Of a DNA stretch of 64,000 nt, positions 24,513 to 60,900 are shown piece by piece. The notes under the pieces were generated by a model. That model saw only the letters and a program-made list of their open reading frames with translations. It searched no databases and was not told the origin of the DNA. Position 1 is the stretch's first letter. Every line of letters begins with the position of its first letter. The stretch comes from Gigantopelta aegis (lineage: Eukaryota > Mollusca > Gastropoda > Neomphalida > Peltospiridae): NCBI RefSeq assembly GCF_016097555.1, contig NC_054706.1, positions 53,271,793 to 53,335,792 on the forward strand. Direction: 5' to 3'. Made by a program: the position numbers and the translations under genes.

Positions 24513-29524
<5,012 letters not shown>

Positions 29525-30503: not shown

Positions 30504-31995
30504 CTCTTCAAAAGAAGAAACGCAAAACCACATTGTCGTAACATTTGGAGAATTGATTTAATTATTGAATGGTGAGTCCGATAATTACCAAATGTTGCAG
30601 GATTGTTCACAATTCACTCTAGTCCATTGTGAGTAAGTGATAGGACACACCACCAAGGTCAAGGTCATCTGGAGTCAATACCGGGTGTGGCCTCCGCGTG
30701 TGTTGACAACTGCCTGGCACCGCCTGCCCATTGAAGCAACCAGAGTACGGATGACGTCCCAGGGGATGGTGGCCCACTCGGCCTGCAAGGCTGCTGCCAG
30801 CTCGGGCAGGGTCTGGGGCTGTGGTTGTCGCTGTCGGAGGCGTCGGTCCAACTCGTCCCATAGATGCTCAATTGGGTTCAAATCCGGTGATATCGATGGC
30901 CAAGGAAGGACATTAATGTTGTTGTTCTGTAGGAAAGCCGTTGTGAGACGTGCTGTGTGAGGCCTGGCGTTGTCATGTTGGAACACTGCGTTGGCGTTGG
31001 CCATAACTGGAACGATGTGTGGCCGGAGGATCTGGTCAATGTAGCCCTGTGCATTCAGGTTGCCCTGCACGTGGACCAGGTCAGTTCTGCCAGTGTGTGA
31101 GATGGCTGCCCACACCATGACACTACCCCCGCCGAATCTGTCCACTTCCTGCACGCAGTTTGCTGCATAACGTTCACCACGACGCCTATACACGCGACAT
31201 CTTCCATCATGACGTCGGAGCAGAAATCGGGACTCGTCACTGAACCACACCTGTCTCCATCGCAGTTAAGGCCATTGTCGATGAATCTGGCACCACTGCA
31301 GTCGGAGTCGACGGTGTTGTGGTGTTAAGATGACACCTCGAACTGGACGTCTGGTACGAATTCCTACCTCACGTAGGCAGTTCCGTACGGTCTGGTCGGA
31401 TATCCTGCACAAACCTGGTATTGCTGCGGCTGTGGAGGTGGCAGTAGTCAATCGTTCCCGAAGGTGGCGTACCCGGATGTAGCGGTCCTGCCCGGGGGTA
31501 GTGACCCGTGGTCGACCGGATCTAGGGAGGTCACGTGTTGATCCATGTTGCTGGTAACGGTCCCAGTCTGGAGATGGTGCTTGGGGACACATGGAATGCC
31601 CTGGCAACGGCCGTTCTGGATTCGCCTGCGTCTAGTCGGCCGATGGCATTGTTTCTCTGCGGTTCACTGAGACGTGGCATGTCCTGGATTGTCAACTGTC
31701 GGCCAGATACAGAGGCCAGGCAAGCGAACACCCTGCACTTTTATACTGTCGGTGTTCATGTTGCACGTGCAGACAACGCACGTGCAGTGGTGACATGGTT
31801 TGCACGTGGCTGCGTTTTTGCGAATATTCACATTTTGGAACTTTATTGTACAGTAGCTGCGTTTTATCGAATGTAACCGTGGGAATGTGTTTGGGACAAG
31901 CAATGACCTTATATTCACAAAGCATGAACCGGTAGGAAACATAAAATCGGAGTTATAACCCAATTGTACCCTTTTGCGTTTCTTTTTTTGAAGAG
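30504..31995 (-). mobile_element. Tc1/mariner (DD34E) transposon, defective
   Basis: Terminal inverted repeats of about 24 bp start CTCTTCAAAAGAAGAAACGC on the left and CTCTTCAAAAAAAGAAACGC on the right (reverse strand). TA dinucleotides flank both (30502-30503, 31996-31997). The 1,492-bp length and the single transposase between the TIRs fit the Tc1 group. The TIRs are well preserved although the gene is broken. Confidence 0.95.
30675..31680 (-). pseudogene. Tc1-type transposase, one frameshift and one stop
   Basis: An N-terminal HTH starts MPRLSEPQRNNAIGRLDAGE. A 1-base loss near 31564 shifts the frame just after the STISRL helix, and the next frame carries the second HTH and the GRPR hook (DLPRSGRPR). 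An in-frame TAA at 31266-31268 precedes the catalytic part: VWFSDESRF (first D), FQHDNARPH (second D) and SPDLNPIEHLWDEL (E). Thirty-four residues lie between the last two, hence DD34E. The total length of about 335 codons is normal for the family. It cannot encode an active enzyme as read, though the TIRs could still be mobilised by a related transposase. Confidence 0.94.
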
Positions 31996-49300: not shown

Positions 49301-51920
49301 CTGAACTCTAAAATAAACACGAAATATATTTTTTTAAAGAAGGGATTAACACATATTGAAATTCCGAAGAATTACACATTGACACGGCTCGAAACGGCCT
49401 GTGGCCAGGTCGCCAAATGTTTGGGCGACTTAAATATTAAAAAAATGATGGCATTAGTCACCCAAATAATATTATGTGGGCGATCTTCTTTAAAGATATA
49501 ACATATGAGCCACTATTAATATTTGTATTTCACATTAAAATCATGCTCTTACAATAATTTACCAACATTCATTATTTTTTTTTTGGGCCACCATATTTTT
49601 GGGGTGAGTTTCGAGCCCTGCATTGATATACCGTTTACCATTTCACAGAATTGAGTGTTTGTAATCAAGTAAACCTATTCTAATGACAAACCATAACCCT
49701 GATTTGTTTTTCTTTTGGCGGACAGTATATTTTGTGATATATTGCACTAGCTCCCTTTGGCAGTCAGGTTTGTAATGTTCAGAGCAATTAGTGATGCCAT
49801 AATGATAACGGTCCGATCCTGGTTTTCAAGAATACAAACAAAGAAGAAGTTTGTTTTGTTTACCGACACCACTACAGCACATTGATTAATTAATCATCGG
49901 CTAATGGATGTCCCAAACATTTGGTAATTCTGACTCGTAGTCAACAGAGAAAACCCTGCTATATTTTTCCTAATGTAGCAAGGGATCTTTTATATGCACA
50001 TTCCCACAGACAGGAAAGCACATACCATGGTCTTTGATATACCAGTCGTGATGCACTGGCTGGAACGAGAAATAGCCCAATGGGCCCACTGATGAAATCA
50101 ATCCCAGACCGACCGGACATCAAGTGAGCGCTTTACCACTGGGCTACGTCCCACCCCTACAGGGATACAACACACACTAAATAAATACATTGGAACTGAA
50201 TCATTCGTCCAGTGTTCAGTTTATAGGTTTCCAGTTTAGAGAGAACTTCAGTGTTAAAATATGCATAAATCACAGGACTATGAAAACATCCAGTTTGGAG
50301 AGAATTTCAGTTCAGAGAGGGTCCGGTGTTGAGGGCTTTCACTGCACTTCAGTCCGTAACATGTAATTGTCAAGTTGTCCCAATGCTCATAAACTCGTAA
50401 ATATATAGGTGTATAACAGGAGTACCTGTTTAAACCTCTTGAGGTGCAACACTAGAATATTTGGCAGTGACCAGAGTCCCAGTGTCTTGATGGTCCCCTG
50501 CTGTTGTTTCTGACAATGTGAACACAGCCAGGCATCTTCACCACTCAACTAAACAAAGTAAACATTACAAATAATGTTATAGTACAGAAGAACAGGTACG
50601 TACATGCATTTTTGTGATCCTTTGATAGTGTTCTTTTTACGACAATGACATAGGGTTACTTCTCAAATGTACCGTAACAAAAAAGCTAACAAAACAAAAC
50701 AAAAACACCCCCCAAAACTCCCCAGAATGTGGAGGAAGTTGTGTTTAGTTTTCAAAATCTTTATATTTTTCGTTAATTAAAAATTGATTAGCAACTTCTA
50801 TTTAATGTTTTAAAATTGTGTATCGATCTCTGAACCTTACATAAGACCTTCAAAAGATAATGATTATTGCTAGAACAAGTAACTTCTAACTAAAATTGTA
50901 ATAGTAATAGAAGTGTCAAGAGTTAAAATTTATTGCTGAATTGGAAGAGGTGTCTATTTGACAGCAGTGAATTTCTTTCCTACTAACTCTAGACATAATT
51001 ATCATGATTATGATGACAATTTAAATCAAATATTTGAAAGAAAGTTTGCCATGTATAAAATCCAAAACATATTCTTTTCATAGATTAAAATAGTACACAC
51101 ATGACCTGAGAGTGAATATAAAAAAAACCCCCAAGTTTGCAGAATGTAAAAATTAATATTTGTGTACTTGCCTCTTCCTTCTGTGTGTACATCGTGAAGC
51201 ACTCATCTATAGTTGTAGAGACAGCGTGCTGCTGCGACAGCCGTTGTTTATGAACAGACGTGTGTTCTGTGATGCAGTCTTCGTCATCAATAACAATACT
51301 AAGAGAAATATACACTGTTAAAGCTAAAGTTTTGTTTTGTTTAACAACACCACTACAGCACATTGATTAATTAATCATCGGCTATTGGATGTCAAACATT
51401 TGGTAATTATGAAATTTAGTCTTCAAAGGAAACCCGCTATATCTGTCATATGCACTTTCCCAAATAGCATACATGTATATATACCATAAATTCCAGTTGT
51501 GGGACACTGGTTGGGATTAAAAAACCCAAAACAATCAGACAATAAATCCACCGAGGGGTTTCGATCCTCCAACCAACGTACCTGAGGTTAACACTGTACC
51601 AACTGAGCTAGATCCCAGCCCATATACACTGTTATATCTGGACAACAACTACACTAGTTTAATTACAAGGTACATGTTTGTAAAGACGACCCAACATTTC
51701 AATAGAAAGTAAAAAAAAAAAAAAATCACCAATTTATCAACTTAATGATTTCATCAGTTTGATATCTTAATCTTTTAACAAACAGCTTACTTTAAACAGC
51801 TTATCTAATTTATGAAAAAAAATTATTGCTTGAGTGACACTTTAATTAGATTCAAAATGAATAATTTAAATAAAAATTTAGTAAAGTAATTTAATATTTA
51901 CATTTCTTTAGTTATTCAGT

Positions 51921-51972
<52 letters not shown>

Positions 51973-54900
51973 ATGCTTACCAGTCTTTAATATGAGGCTC
52001 CCATTCAGCCACTAGCTTAAGATGAGGCGTACCATTTCTCTCAGAATAGCTTAAAGCCCTGAAAAATAAAATGGCTCTATTCATTACTAATTTTACAATT
52101 TACTAAAACAACAAATAATGATCTATATGTAAACACAAAATATCTGAAAAACAAGACTTCCATAAGATATCTGAACCACGACTCTGGAAAATACATAGCA
52201 AAGATACAATTCAGAATGAGCTTGACAAGAAAATCTTTTAATTGTACTAGTTTATTGAAGACCATTTTAATGGTATGCTCTAACCACAACTCACAACTGA
52301 TGAAGGTTCTCAACCAGAGTGGCTTGGAACAATAGTGTGTTATGATTCCAATCAAGGTATGTTACATCATTTAAATAAAAAGGTTCTCAACCAGAGTGGC
52401 TTGGAACAATAGTGTGTTATGATTCCAATCAAGGTATGTTACATCATTTAAATAAAAAGGTTCTCAACCAGAGTGGCTTGGAACAATAGTGTGTTATGAT
52501 TCCAATCAAGGTATGTTACATCATTTAAATAAAAAGGTTCTCAACCAGAGTGGCTTGGAACAATAGTGTGTTATGATTCCAATCAAGGTATGTTACATCA
52601 TTTAAATAAAAAGGTTCTCAACCAGAGTGGCTTGGAACAATAGTGTGTTATGATTCCAATCAAGGTATGTTACATCATTTAAATAAAAAACATTTAATGC
52701 TTACTTAACTATTATACATATTTTTATTTCACACGTATTGAAATTTTAAGCTACATATACCAGGGGACAATATTTCAAAATCTTTGGTAACCAGAAGTCA
52801 GTTCACGTGAGGTTTACTTAGGTAACCGACCGTTTGGTTATGTGAATATAGTTCTCATAACCGATGAGTTAGGCCTACCTAATCCTAAAACACTTGAACT
52901 ACGAAATCTTCTGTGCTACATTGGTGGTTCAAAAACAAACTGATTTTCACTTTATTACTGATATAGGGTACATTTTAGATGTAATTGTTCACCTACTAAC
53001 CGATTTGCGGTTCTCATGATTTTAAAGTTGCGTAACCCGACACAGGAACAGAACAACGGTTCTTGTGAAATATTGTGCCCTGCCATACTGAATATTTATG
53101 TGATCAGAGACATGTTTTTAAAGATGAATTTGGCAGGATGTTCATAATTTTACAGTGGTCTGTAATGTGCTGGGAAAAAAATGAAACATCCATTTATTTA
53201 TTTATTTCAAAAACCAATTCCAGTATATAAAGATTATTATACGAGCTCGTGTATCATACTGATTTTAAGAAACGAGTCTCAGGATTATTGTATACAGGGC
53301 TTCTAGAATTTTTACAAAATCCACTAGTCTGTGATTTTAAAAATTTCAAGCCATGATTAAAAATTCACTAGCCCTACTTTACTTAATACAATTTTACCAA
53401 TAGTTACAATCAAATATGTTACCTAAAGAGGGAGATAGAGATTAAAAACACTAAGATTGGGGTGTGTGGGCAGGATATTTATATTTATCAAATACACTTA
53501 AATGCATGGGAGTGGGGCTACCATAATTTAGAAGCATTAGTTAATACATGAATCCTGACACAAGTTTTGTAAAATCAGTACGATTCACACGCGAGTGTAA
53601 TAATTTCTTTATTATCCACATTATCCAAAATATTATTTTTATGAATAGCAAGCTAGGACTATGTCAAAATGTTTGAAACGTAACTAAAAAGAGACGACGA
53701 AACAACGTCATTTTCATTTATACTAAGGAAGCCACATTAAGTTATGACGTTGCTTCACAAAATTACGTCATTCATGGTGCACGTGAAATCATTATGACAC
53801 ACGTGGGTCATACTGATTATATTTCCATGAATATCTTGAACTATGTGGATAATAAAGAAAGATATTCACCTATCAACAGCCTGTGTGAAGAAAGGCATCT
53901 CCACATCAGTCTGTAAATACACTGGCCGACTCGGATAGCCATCAACAATTCGTAACCTGAACAATGTGTTTGTTTTCTGAAAGAAAAAAACATATATATG
54001 TAAAGTATATGTCTATCAAACAGACAGATATTGCTAAAATAGCTAATATCCTTAAAAGTTAATATAATTATACTTATATAGTATTTTTTAAAAATGCTTT
54101 AAAGAAGGTAACACAACACATTTGACAAATTAACATTTACATTTTTATATAACTTTATTACACTTCAATGAAAAAAGCAATTTATTATTTTAACCTCTTT
54201 GCTCCTAACAATTTGCTATGCTGTACTAGTCCAATTTTTTTAACTTTCCTTTAATTCATGCAAATGCCTGGTAAAAGGCTTAAAAGGACATTCCTGAGTT
54301 TGCTGCAGTTTTTAAGATGTTATTGACTAACAAAGACTTTTTGACGATTGTAATTACATAACAAATATATTTGTCTGCATAAAACATTAGTGACTATATA
54401 TTAAAACATGTTTCTAGGTTAAATTTAATTTATTTCCTAAAATTTTGTTTTTTCATATGTACGAACAGGGTTCATACAGAAAGTGTGAAATCAAATTTAA
54501 GAACATTCAAGAACATTTGCGGGGGGGGAAATAGAACTTTTTCAAGAACATTTTAGGAGTATATGTACAATAAAAAAATTCAAACATGTCAGATGCAAGC
54601 AACAGCAGTGTTGCACCGGTGCTGGCTTGCTGTTGCATACGTTTCTTATGCAGGTCTGACTTCGCGTGGCTTTCTAAAGCATACTTCCCAGCATTCACAA
54701 TGCTTAACCGTTTCTTGCAAAGATTGCATACTGCAACCTTGTCATCTGTGCGATCTTTCACTATCCAATCTTTATATTTGGGATCAAAAGCCACTCATCC
54801 CGAAACTTGCAACTTCCATGTTGGTGAGGCATGATCGAAAACATTCCAAGAAACTTCCAACATGTGCAAATTAAAAATCCAAATGGCGTCGTGTAGAAAA

Positions 54901-57900
54901 TAAAAAGCAAACACGGCCCTAATTGGTCATTCGCTCTTGAACGAACCAATAGAAAACGTAGCATTATCCTATATCAGGTGGTGCCATCTACTGAATCAAA
55001 CTACCACTAATTCATCAATTCCCGGATCTCCGCTATTTTATCTGACACAATTCGCCGATTTTTTCATACAAACATTAGTAATGATTGTTTAACAAAATGC
55101 CAATAAATATTATCCAGTCATACAAATTGTTAGTTACGTGCATGAAAATTCATGAAAATCAGATTCAAGAACATCCAGTCAAATTCAAGAACATTCGAGG
55201 GTACTCGAACGAAAAAATCAAATTCAGAACATTCGAGACTTTCGGCGCCCTGTGCAAACCTTGCGTACGAAATTATTTGAACACAAAAACCAGTTTGGGC
55301 TTCTTAGAAATATTAAGACAACCAGAAACACACTGAATATACAGATACTGATATTCTAAACAAGAAAATATATTTAATATGTAGTTTAATGGTAGAAATA
55401 TTTTATTAGTCGGAAACATCTTCAAATGCAGCAAACTCAGGAATGTCCCTTTAAACTGGTATTATAAAAAAAAGTGTAAAAGGAAGTAACTCACTGGAAT
55501 AACTGTAGTTAGTCTGGTTTTAATCCAAGAAGACATCTATTAAAGAGGTAACTTTATACTCTCATAGGTAACAGTATGACATAGATTTCACTGTACATGT
55601 ACTACAAGTATAATGACTAAACAGTTATCACCTTTGTCAAAACATCTTCTTTAACAGCGTTTCCCATCTCATACAGTATTTCCTGCTGTAAGTGGCGATA
55701 GTGGAAATCTCTCGGCACTCGTAACACCATTGGACTACAGAAACGGTAGCTGAAAAAAAAAAAAAAAATTATACAATGAACCAGACAACTATTTTAACAC
55801 CATATACAGCATTACTAAGTAATAAGCAAGCTTTAAAAACATTACTACGTTTTCAACAGGACGTTATAAACTCCGGGACCTGTGTAGTTTCTAGACCTTT
55901 CCCCAGGATATTGTTAAGGCGCTTACATTTTCACTGTCAGTTTAACACAAATGCAAGTGCCAGCTTTGTTGTCTATGACAATTAGCAATCAACTGTTGTT
56001 AAATGAAAGGGTGCCAAGGGCCTTACATCTAATTAGGTATGAAGGACATGTTTAACCTATTAGAAGTGTGAATACCTGTGTACTGTAAAGTTTTAAAAGT
56101 TGTTACAACCAGCAGTTGATTGTCACATATAGCCAATTAAAGTGTACAAATAATTAATTTGAGGCCCTTGCCAAAGCGCTTACTAACACACCTAAGGCAT
56201 AGTGGCCCCCTATGCCATATGCCTCTGAGGAAACCCCTGGTTTCGTTAAAGTAAATTACTCAATGTGTACCACATCATGATCTGTATGAAAGAAATTCTA
56301 CAATGGTAAAGAATTTTGTAGGGTTTATATAATATTATTTTAATACTTAGTAAGAATTCATGAACTTAAGAAACACTGTCATACTATCTATGTCTCAATC
56401 TATGACAAAACAAGCCTTTTTCTTTCAATTAGAAATATCTAGGTTACAACTCCATGATCACTATATACAAATGTGATTATTTGGTTAAATTGCTGTTTTC
56501 TAGCTGTTCGCGTTTTTGGTATCTACCATAATCATGTACCAGTACTATATATATTAAGGTGCATGGAATTTTATAGCAAATAGAGGAAGAAGATCTATTT
56601 CTGTTTACTTAATATCCAAAAGGATCAGTGATTTTTTTCGGTGAGCACAATTAAAATTTGTCTCATAACTGTCAAAAAATATGTGCATGAATTATATTTA
56701 CTATACATGTATATGAGGATAAATATGGAATTTTATAGCAAATAGAGGAAGATAAAGGTAAAGTTAAAGTTTATTTTGTTTATCGACACTATTAGAGCAC
56801 ACTGATTTATTAATCATCAGCTATTAGATGTTGAACATTTGGCAATTCTGACACGCAGTCATCAGAGGAAACTGCTACATTTCCCCTATTAGGAGCGCAT
56901 AGGAAAGCACAAACCATGGCCTTTGACCAGTTGTGGTGCACTGGTTGGAATGAAAAGAAACACAATCAGTTGAATGTATCCACCGAGGACATTCAATCCT
57001 GTGACACAAACACCTCAAGTGAGCACTCAACCAACTGAGCTAAATCCTGCCCCCAAATAGTAGAAGATGTGCTTCTGTTACTTACTAGCCCAGAGGACTG
57101 GTGACTTTCTCGGTGTGTAGAAGATGTGTTTCTGTTACTCACTAGCCCGGAGGACTGGTGACTTTCTCGGTGTGTAGAAGATGTGTTTCTGTTACTCACT
57201 AGCCCGGAGGACTGGTGACTTTTTCGGTGTGTAGAAGATGTGTTTCTGTTACTGACTAGCCCGGAGGACTGGTGACTTTCTCGGTGTGTAGAAGATGTGT
57301 TTCTGTTACTGACTAGCCCGGAGGACTGGTGACTTTCTCGGTGTGTAGAAGATGTGTTTCTGTACTCACTAGCCCGGAGGACTGGTGACTTTCTCGGTGT
57401 GTAGAAGATGTGTTTCTGTTACTCACTAGCCCGGAGGACAGGTGACTTTCTCGGTGTGTAGAAGATGTGTTTCTGTTACTCACTAGCCCAGAGGACTGGT
57501 GACTTTCTCGGTGTGTAGAAGATGTGTTTCTGTTACTCACTAGCCCAGAGGACTGGTGACTTTCTCGGTGTGTATAACATGTGTTTCTGTTTCTGACTAG
57601 CCCAGAGGACTGGTGACTTTCTCGGTGTGTATAAGATGTTTTTCTGTTTACTTACTAGCCCAGAGGACTGGTGACTTTCTCGGTGTGTAGAAGATGTGTT
57701 TCTGTTTACTTACTAGCCCGGAGGATTGGCGACTTTCTCGGTGTGTAGAAGATGTGTTTCTGTTTACTTACTAGCCCGGAGGACTGGTGACATTCTCGGT
57801 GTGTAGAAGATGTGTTTCTGTTTACTTACCGGGGTACTAGCCCAGAGGACTGATGACTTTCTCGGTGTGTACAAGATGCAGCGGTTGCAAAACTAAGTAC

Positions 57901-60900
57901 TAGTAGGCATTGGAACTGACAGAGTAGGAGTTGGGGGTTTATCGAGAGCTACAGGCACTCAGTAATGGGGGCACATGGGGGGCCTCTATGAGCCAGAGTC
58001 TGTTACCATAGAAGTGTGCAATGTAGTCCACTTGTAATGCATATAGTTGGTGAAATTGTTGGCCCAAGAATAGAAGAAGTATGACTCAGTGGTTTTCTGT
58101 TTTTAAAAAAAAGAGAGCTAATTCCTGTTTAATGTTTTTGTAAATTCCGTTTCATTTCTATTTCAGACTACAATATGTAATTAACAATTGAACTAACACA
58201 AGTTGTGACAAATTAAAGGGTCTGAAAATTGACTGGTGTTGACATGCGTCGCTATTTGTCATTAAATCAAAGTAAGCCTACGCAAAGGCTACAATTATAA
58301 TAACTACATAAAGCATGATTGTCCAACAATTAAGTGCACTGCTTTATTCAACGGGGCTTAGGGTTCACACAACGTAAACATTTATTTTATCATCTCTTTG
58401 ACAGTCTAATGTCGTATGCAAATTGAAGTATGCGCATGACACAGCAGAAATAAAGTAACATTGCAACGTTCAGCGGAAAATAGTAATTCCGTTTACAAAT
58501 GTAAATTCCGTTTCACAATGGGAATTCCAGGAATTCTGTCCATTTTCCGTGATCGCGGAAAATCACTGGGTCTAGTGTGCTCATAAATCAAAACAAAATA
58601 TATTTTAAAAACAAAGGCAATGAGCAGTAATGGATGCTGTATTCGTGGGAAACTCAAAGTTTTCCTGAAGAAATTAACCCATAGAAGCCGAGCTATACAT
58701 TCATACAAGAACCGTGGGGAAAATAGACGTCGGAAATGAGAATAGTAAACGTCGCATGCGAGGCCTTGTTTTGCAACCAATGAGATGTGTTTCTGTTTAC
58801 TTACTAGCCCGGAGGACTGGTGACTTTCTCGGTGTGCACCACGATCAGCTGGATGAACGGTGTCTCGTAGCGGTCAGAAGATGTGGATGGATTACTGTGC
58901 TCAAACAGTTCTATGGCATACAGGAAGGGTTCGTTGTCATGGATGTCAGAAAGAGGCTGCTCGTCTCTGTATGTCGTGCGAAACCCGTCATCGTAAATCT
59001 GACATAGCACCAACTAGAAATAAAAAAATGTGATTTAAAAAAAAAATTACCACCTAGAAATAATTAAATTTCCGTTATATTCAGTACAATTTAACATCAT
59101 CGCATTGTCGCAATGCGAGTTTGTTCATTTCTTGATGAATGTAAAAATAACGTCAGGGAATATCATATCTGATGCTGTCTCTTTATATATCGTTTAGTAG
59201 TTTGCCTTACTGAGAGTTATTGTTTAAGAACCAAAAAAGAATTCAAAATAAAATATAAACTTTTAGTGTTATTATAAATAAAACATAAACTTTTAGTGAT
59301 ATTATTAGTAAGTTTGAAATTTAATTATAAATATTGTCTGTTGTTTCTTTTATGTTTATCTGGGTATGAAAAATAAAAATTCTGTAAACTTCTGTGAGAA
59401 TGGTTTCGCCAATTCACAGAGTTTGTGGATGATTTTGTACAATTTGATAATTTTAATTAAAAAAAAATAACATGCTAGTTTTTAAGGTTTTAATACCTTT
59501 ATCTGTGATATTATAAGTTGTAGAAGCATCATGAGGGGTTTATGGATTTTTATACCCTCTTCGGCTCGGAGTACAAGAGCATACAAAGGGCATACAGTGG
59601 TTGGCAAATCGTTTGACAGCCATGTTTATTTACGTTGTAACAGACAAATTTTTGCATGGTGCATTAATACAATAACAACAGTCCGATGTTACAGGTGGGG
59701 TATTAGATTTGACTCTGCCCATGCGGGGTATAAGGTTTGTTTTCCAAGGCTAAATAACCAATGAAATTTGAGTACCGGTATTTCACCTGAAGGTGAGATA
59801 ATAGTATTTTTTACACTCTGGTATATAGATCTATACACAACTGTTTTATTCTTAACTACTGAATTTTTGTGTTGATATTCTTTTATCATCTATTTTTCAT
59901 ATGCTTACCTTTATCTAACAGATAAAATATTTTTCATGCTGAGAAGTTGTTAAACATACATTCATGCATTCTATATATTTTAACTGATTTTACACACAGT
60001 TATTAATTTAAAGATTTCATAACGTGTATATTGTATATCTAGGACTCATATATCACTCATCGACATTTTATTAAATATAATAGGCAACTTAATTGTCTAA
60101 TTCAGTGATAGAAATAAACATACTTTTTTTTACTAGTCCAACGGACAAATACATCTAGAAATCTACTTGTCTGCCAATATTTTCATTTGTCCAAATAACT
60201 GGTTTGTTTGTTTTTAGTACAAAGATGATGTTTTTGATTACTTAGAATGAAACTGCATGGAAAATGTTTACTTGTCCACAGAACAAACACCAATATACAT
60301 TTCGGTTGTCCGAATAGATTTTCACTTGTCAGGACAAACAGACGAGTGCTTATTTAGAACCCTGCAATTTCATTGAAATCAGATCTTGAAATCTAAAACA
60401 CTTTGTTTTCAACACATGTAACTGACAGATCTTGGTTGACCTTTCAACTGTGAATGCATAAACAGTCAATAAAATATTGATATAACAGACTGTAAACAAG
60501 ATGTCCCCAATGCCTACGATTTAAAAAACCCCAGAATTCCATGAAATTAAATGTTTTACCTTCCATTCAGTTAATTAAAAAATTATAACATAAGGACAAT
60601 TAATTTTTAAAATTAATTTAAATTAATAAAGTAAATATTTTTTAATCAACCATTGAGATTAACATGAATTCACAGATGTAACTATAAAGCAAATTTCACG
60701 GATCTATGACTTATAGTTAGTGAAACACAGCTAAACACAAAATCTTAATATTGAGTTATAAAATGCAAAAGCTGACTGTTGCTGTCATCACCAGTGGAAA
60801 AGTTACATCTCTATCTCACCTTTCATTTTTTTTCCAGGTGACACAAAAAACCATTTAGTGGCACAACAAAACTCAAAATCATTACCCACACCCAACCACT

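Follow-up and report, generated by a model that had tools for sequence, protein, structure and literature searches.

The 64,000-nucleotide stretch analysed here (the window; contig NC_054706.1, positions 53,271,793–53,335,792) comes from the deep-sea vent snail Gigantopelta aegis and carries, on its minus strand, a USP43-like gene, one intron of which holds a minisatellite made of copies of the adjoining exon-intron junction. The host was assigned by mapping a ubiquitin carboxyl-terminal hydrolase 43-like protein of the same species (P0001; 100% identity over 54% of the query), whose residues from 303 onward fall into ten exons within the window, bearing out the USP assignment of an earlier sequence-only reading of this DNA. 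The coding exon that is the source of the repeat unit (58805–59013, minus strand) encodes residues 410–478 and two bases of codon 479; its last 32 bases occupy 58805–58836, and it ends in phase 2 at GGGCTA/GTAAGT, the next exon opening with the C that completes Tyr 479 (TA + C). The native 5′ splice site (58799–58804, minus strand) reads GTAAGT, follows directly on CTA and forms a U1 duplex of −7.2 kcal/mol, and the next exon in the transcript (55632–55749, minus strand, residues 480–518) is preceded by the acceptor TTTTTTTTTCAG, directly before its opening C. The intron that bears the array is thus 3055 bp long (58804–55750). In the gene model underlying P0001, splicing runs from the native donor past the array to the exon at 55632–55749, and comparison of P0001 with seven relatives showed no extra residues at the array-adjacent junction. 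Pfam searches gave no match for the source exon (69 residues) or the preceding exon, the UCH domain lying in later exons.

Tandem Repeats Finder (TRF) reported a repeat at 57060–57878 with a period of 57, 14.2 copies and 94% matches, which we split into 14 units (57061–57869, minus strand), numbered from unit 1 nearest the exon (57804–57869, minus strand) to unit 14 (57061–57117, minus strand). The sequence-only reading had described fourteen 57-bp units; the number stands, whereas the lengths run from 56 to 66 nt: nine units measure 57 nt and three 58 nt, and the other two 56 and 66 nt. Every unit consists of 32 bases identical or nearly identical to the exon end, then a 5′ splice site or its remnant, then intron bases. 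Accordingly, the native 54-nt stretch at 58783–58836, comprising 32 exon and 22 intron bases with the donor included, matches all 14 units at 83–98%, in line with the earlier proposal that the unit derives from an exon end, its donor and the start of the intron. Units 2–4 are 58 nt long and contain GTAAGTAAAC, as does the native unit, while unit 1 carries an 8-nt insertion (57830–57837, minus strand; exact placement ambiguous) that yields CCG/GTAAGT, with the donor starting at 57829; of all array donors this one lies closest to the exon, at a distance of 975 nt from the native donor. When the unit was used as a query against the 1.149-Gb assembly, in a search that skips very common words and scores the best candidates only, 15 matches were returned, all at this locus and corresponding to the 14 units and the native junction.

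Between the array and the exon lies a 904-bp interval (57879–58782, no strand assigned) with the hallmarks of a non-autonomous DNA transposon, namely terminal inverted repeats, a target-site duplication and dispersed copies that share its ends. Its termini, CAGCGGTTGCAAAAC and GTTTTGCAACCAATG, form an inverted pair matching at 11 of 11 inner bases, and it is flanked by the duplication AGATG, with the left copy at 57874–57878 and the right copy at 58783–58787 (both given on the plus strand). Searching the assembly with the interval, with the best 40 of 514 candidates scored, placed relatives in at least 39 other places, as long pieces of 80–88% identity; 35 of these 39 long pieces start at base 1 of the query and 22 of 32 further, shorter pieces end at base 904, and because the relatives begin and end there, the limits of the interval can be taken as the ends of a dispersed element. 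Eight loci were retrieved, one of them the array locus itself; in all three other copies that could be read at both ends (L030, L032 and L033), perfect 5-bp duplications were found (cagat, ggaac and catgc, respectively), with L031, L034, L035 and L036 readable at the 5′ end only. The longest reading frame within the local copy is 95 residues, and this copy lacks about 300 bp that is present in some relatives. No further copies were found in the window or within the 200 kb of flanks that were searched.

Removal of the 904-bp element together with one AGATG yields a 58-nt unit that agrees with the array consensus at 57 of 58 bases, stands in register with the array and has the length of units 2–4. 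The native junction is, by this measure, a unit 0 of the same array, with its first 54 of 58 nt at 58783–58836 (minus strand) and its last 4 nt past the transposon at 57870–57873. Identity to this rejoined unit is 83.3% for unit 1 and 89.7–96.6% for the other 13, even the lowest value lying above the roughly 80% that the sequence-only reading had set as a floor for an origin from the exon junction. Since the rejoined unit is in register and the intervening sequence is a dispersed element with target duplications, the array would once have been continuous with the exon. Neighbouring units also resemble one another more closely than chance would have it: with the rejoined native unit included and the unit 1 insertion omitted, the differences between neighbours amount to 35; random orders average 49.0, and none of 5000 gave a value as low, as expected from tandem turnover.

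Inspection of the donor positions showed GTAAGT in five units (that of unit 1 displaced by its insertion), GTGAGT in six, GTCAGT in two and GTCAGA in one. The earlier statement that most units keep a good donor therefore holds for 11 of the 14, and its figure of about 14 decoys is too high. These 11 GTRAGT motifs compare with 0.32 expected in 818 bp from the minus-strand rate outside the array (0.40 per kb), and the only other GTRAGT in the 3055-bp intron is the native donor itself. By U1 duplex energy, the strongest match of the array is unit 1 (−10.9 kcal/mol, by virtue of its 8-nt insertion) and the weakest of the 11 is unit 9 (−7.1 kcal/mol), with units 5, 10 and 11 weak at −1.7, −3.1 and −3.1 kcal/mol, respectively. 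In a survey of the window and 200 kb around it (period 20–300, at least 3 copies), three of 28 tandem arrays had GTRAGT in their consensus, the USP43-like intron array among them.

Potential partner acceptors were scored with a position matrix built from the ten acceptors of the USP43-like gene, with leave-one-out scoring of the native sites. On this small, ten-site model no acceptor-like AG was detected in the array, where the best AG scored −0.5, compared with 3.5–15.6 for the left-out native acceptors. The intron as a whole holds 186 AGs including the real acceptor, and four others reach 3.5, at 55814, 56399, 58167 and 58096. Reading frames were also examined. Read-through from the source exon meets two immediate stops after ...SPPG, as had been predicted for any extension of the exon, and TAG spans the copied junction in 14 of 14 units, such that any exon running on through one of the earlier junctions would be stopped. 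Combinations of the acceptors at 58579, 58167 and 58096 with the first three array donors all contain an in-frame stop.

Taken together, these data lead us to interpret the locus, at a probability of about 0.8, as a silent minisatellite of the rare mirage type that expanded in place, with the native junction as the first of 15 units, and was later split by a transposon; in the available text of PMC3087553, mirages are tandem repeats across exon-intron boundaries, described from amphioxus Adh3 and the globins BflGb6 and BflGb9. We infer the following order of events. A 58-bp segment across the 5′ splice site of the USP43-like exon would have been duplicated in tandem, and slippage or unequal exchange would have enlarged it to 15 units, with the functional junction remaining the first. 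A non-autonomous DNA transposon making 5-bp target duplications would then have entered the intron part of unit 0, displacing the 14 spare units by about 0.9 kb into the intron. The sequence-only reading had instead pictured the junction as copied away from its exon, which in-place expansion followed by separation would replace. In splicing, the real donor would come first in the transcript and close the real exon, and an array donor would find no partner acceptor inside the array, hence no exon would be defined there. Because the real donor comes first and no acceptor-like AG was detected in the array, the extra donors should be silent; the array is most likely silent in splicing, and would be tolerated without a function. 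The U1 sponge, splicing enhancer and intron-retention regulator roles proposed earlier for the array are not supported, no evidence for them having been found in this analysis.

Several observations nevertheless weigh against silence, and all bear on the idea that the array supplies decoy donors, which would lower or tune USP43-like output either by competing for U1 or by pairing with a transposon acceptor in a stop-containing cryptic exon. In U1 pairing, the 11 good donors fall short of the native −7.2 kcal/mol by no more than 0.1 or surpass it, and they crowd an intron otherwise holding only the native GTRAGT, with the strongest of all in unit 1, so that competition for U1 is possible from sequence. 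Two of the AGs outside the array, at 58167 (3.8) and 58096 (3.7), lie inside the transposon, upstream of the array, and equal or exceed the weakest native acceptor (3.5); with the first three array donors they would define exons of 267–454 nt, each with a stop within its first four codons, making a cryptic exon from a transposon AG to an array donor conceivable. A human minisatellite with several splice donors has moreover been published, as known by its title, and the splicing of P0001 is that of a public gene model. On the other side, that model skips the array, and the acceptor scores rest on ten sites of one gene. Nor do the donors stand out by conservation: across the units, 2 of the 6 donor columns vary, as do 7 of the 32 exon columns and 6 of the 20 intron columns, a comparison that gave no sign of donor-specific conservation (donor versus rest, Fisher p = 0.64) and that is itself weak, since the donor offers six columns and independent changes are few, which also counts against the silent reading. 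Counted cell by cell, departures from the native sequence number 10 of 84 in the donor, 12 of 448 in the exon stretch and 28 of 280 in the intron stretch, the donor departing more often than the exon stretch. Selection for the donors is accordingly unsupported by the column comparison, at its low power. On balance, we consider the decoy explanation unlikely. A variant of it, in which a transposon acceptor and the unit 1 donor would delimit a regulated, stop-containing cryptic exon, with array length setting the amount of functional USP43-like mRNA, we hold to be very unlikely; if true, the transposon insertion would have made harmless spare donors into a regulated cryptic exon.

U1 sites are known to protect introns from premature cleavage and polyadenylation, a process termed telescripting, and 11 U1-matching sites within 0.8 kb might guard this long intron in the same way. 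Six AATAAA or ATTAAA words occur on the transcript strand of the intron, upstream of the array at 58386, 58348 and 58133 and downstream at 56811, 56775 and 56344; such words are, however, expected in AT-rich introns, and the donors show no conservation, making this role highly improbable. A further possibility is intron birth under way, in which a donor and an acceptor provided by two units would allow an intron of unit length to be spliced. Introns have been proposed to arise by tandem duplication of sequence resembling splice sites (accessible sections of PMC2891723 and PMC3087553), but the unit has no acceptor-like AG and the array lies entirely within an existing intron, leaving nothing to be gained, and we see almost no chance of it. 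Finally, the present distance of 0.9 kb between array and junction could be taken to mean that an independent event placed a copy of the junction at a remote position in the intron, where it was then amplified. Such an origin is ruled out as far as we can judge, with a residual likelihood close to nil, since one transposon and its target duplication account for the gap exactly, and the sequences on either side of the gap continue each other in unit register. We therefore retain the reading of an in-place, mirage-type expansion that is silent in splicing.

The far edge of the array is occupied by a short interspersed nuclear element (SINE)-like sequence (56754–57053, minus strand), which matches 12 other stretches of the window and gave 61 BLAST pieces in the 200-kb flanks; it is bounded by near-identical 15-mers at 57054–57068 and 56739–56753 (13 of 15) and is presumably derived from a tRNA, ARAGORN giving no tRNA gene there. 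Further into the intron, alignment revealed an older, degenerate second copy (copy B; 56534–56694, minus strand) in which the 3′ part of the exon is followed by its donor and intron flank; the whole alignment scores 40.3, whereas none of 2000 dinucleotide shuffles exceeded 19.3. The GT of the copy's donor is lost and its reading frame broken, which rules it out as a usable second exon. At 56591–56694 the copy is 65% alike to the exon side, and its exon part upstream of the repeat unit is weakly supported, with a score of 20.9 by itself that one shuffle in 2000 and one control window in 1080 attained. The flank at 56563–56590 is identical at 28 of 28 bases to 56725–56752 beyond the SINE-like element, in a neighbourhood only 65–80% alike. 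A simple duplication of old date does not account for such uneven conservation, which suggests conversion or another duplication of later date.

Elsewhere in the USP43-like gene, a second minisatellite occupies another intron (52303–52689, 77 bp × 5, 100% matches by TRF), so it may be very young or an assembly effect, and its consensus contains no GTRAGT. The exon encoding residues 581–622 is followed by a GC donor, GAG/GCAAGT (51166–51171, minus strand), with a GC-AG intron in the public gene model. A 95-residue frame in a further stretch of USP43-like intron (54507–54794, minus strand) has a C..C..H..H pattern and no Pfam match; we take it to resemble a transposon-type zinc finger. The window also contains a 23-bp × 31 array with mixed 21-, 23- and 44-bp periods (27109–27805) and a transposase fragment with a DDE_3 domain (30675–31265, minus strand; E = 6.7e-18). 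Within 200 kb, long minisatellites were found at L020:5967–7948 (53 bp × 37), L025:1182–2162 (30 bp × 33) and L027:2339–3540 (55 bp × 22), and the region around the window abounds in tandem arrays.

Mirages are said to have been first described by Canestro et al. in 2002, and Turri et al. in 1995 (cited in PMC2915984) reportedly presented, to go by their title, a human minisatellite from which an interferon-induced transcript takes multiple splice donors. That human case resembles the snail array in that its units carry splice donors; there, according to the title, the donors serve splicing, whereas in the snail nothing points to donor use, the array lies 0.9 kb off and TAG crosses every copied junction. 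The snail array has every mirage feature that sequence can check: its units run across an exon-intron boundary, the authentic boundary counts among the units once the transposon is taken out, many but not all units keep splice signals, and the units appear to evolve in concert. Amphioxus mirages, in the accessible text of PMC3087553, show length instability and homogenised inner units, and splicing, as judged by RT-PCR, was undisturbed; that of PMC3902484 adds troponin C to the cases and compares PGBD5 to mirages. The snail array differs from the amphioxus examples in its molluscan host, in having 14 spare copies of the 5′ splice site, compared with 6 and 3 units in two haplotypes of BflGb6 and a duplicate in BflGb9 as given in the part of the source available, and in its separation from the source exon by a transposon, known here from the sequence of one assembly.

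Variable internal tandem repeats of human segmental duplications are, as far as the available text of PMC2812944 goes, likewise minisatellite-sized and situated at exon-intron boundaries, and can alter transcripts through new introns, an effect not seen in the snail gene model. Intron gain by tandemly duplicated proto-splice sites (accessible parts of PMC2891723 and PMC4974935) shares with the snail array the duplication of splice-site sequence within a gene; it needs a unit with both donor and acceptor, unlike the snail unit, whose copies sit inside an existing intron. The intronic minisatellites of earthworm metallothionein differ in structure, as described in the text available from PMC12783039. 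No molluscan mirage-type array was found in searches of the open-licence literature, and what is new here is the molluscan case, the split by a transposon and the older, degenerate second copy of the junction. In this one intron each step can be read: a 5′ splice site was duplicated 14 times, the copies mostly match U1 as well as the original, and the gene model is apparently normal. The snail array is thereby a natural setting in which to test which factors other than donor sequence select a splice site, and suggests that mirage arrays are not peculiar to amphioxus.

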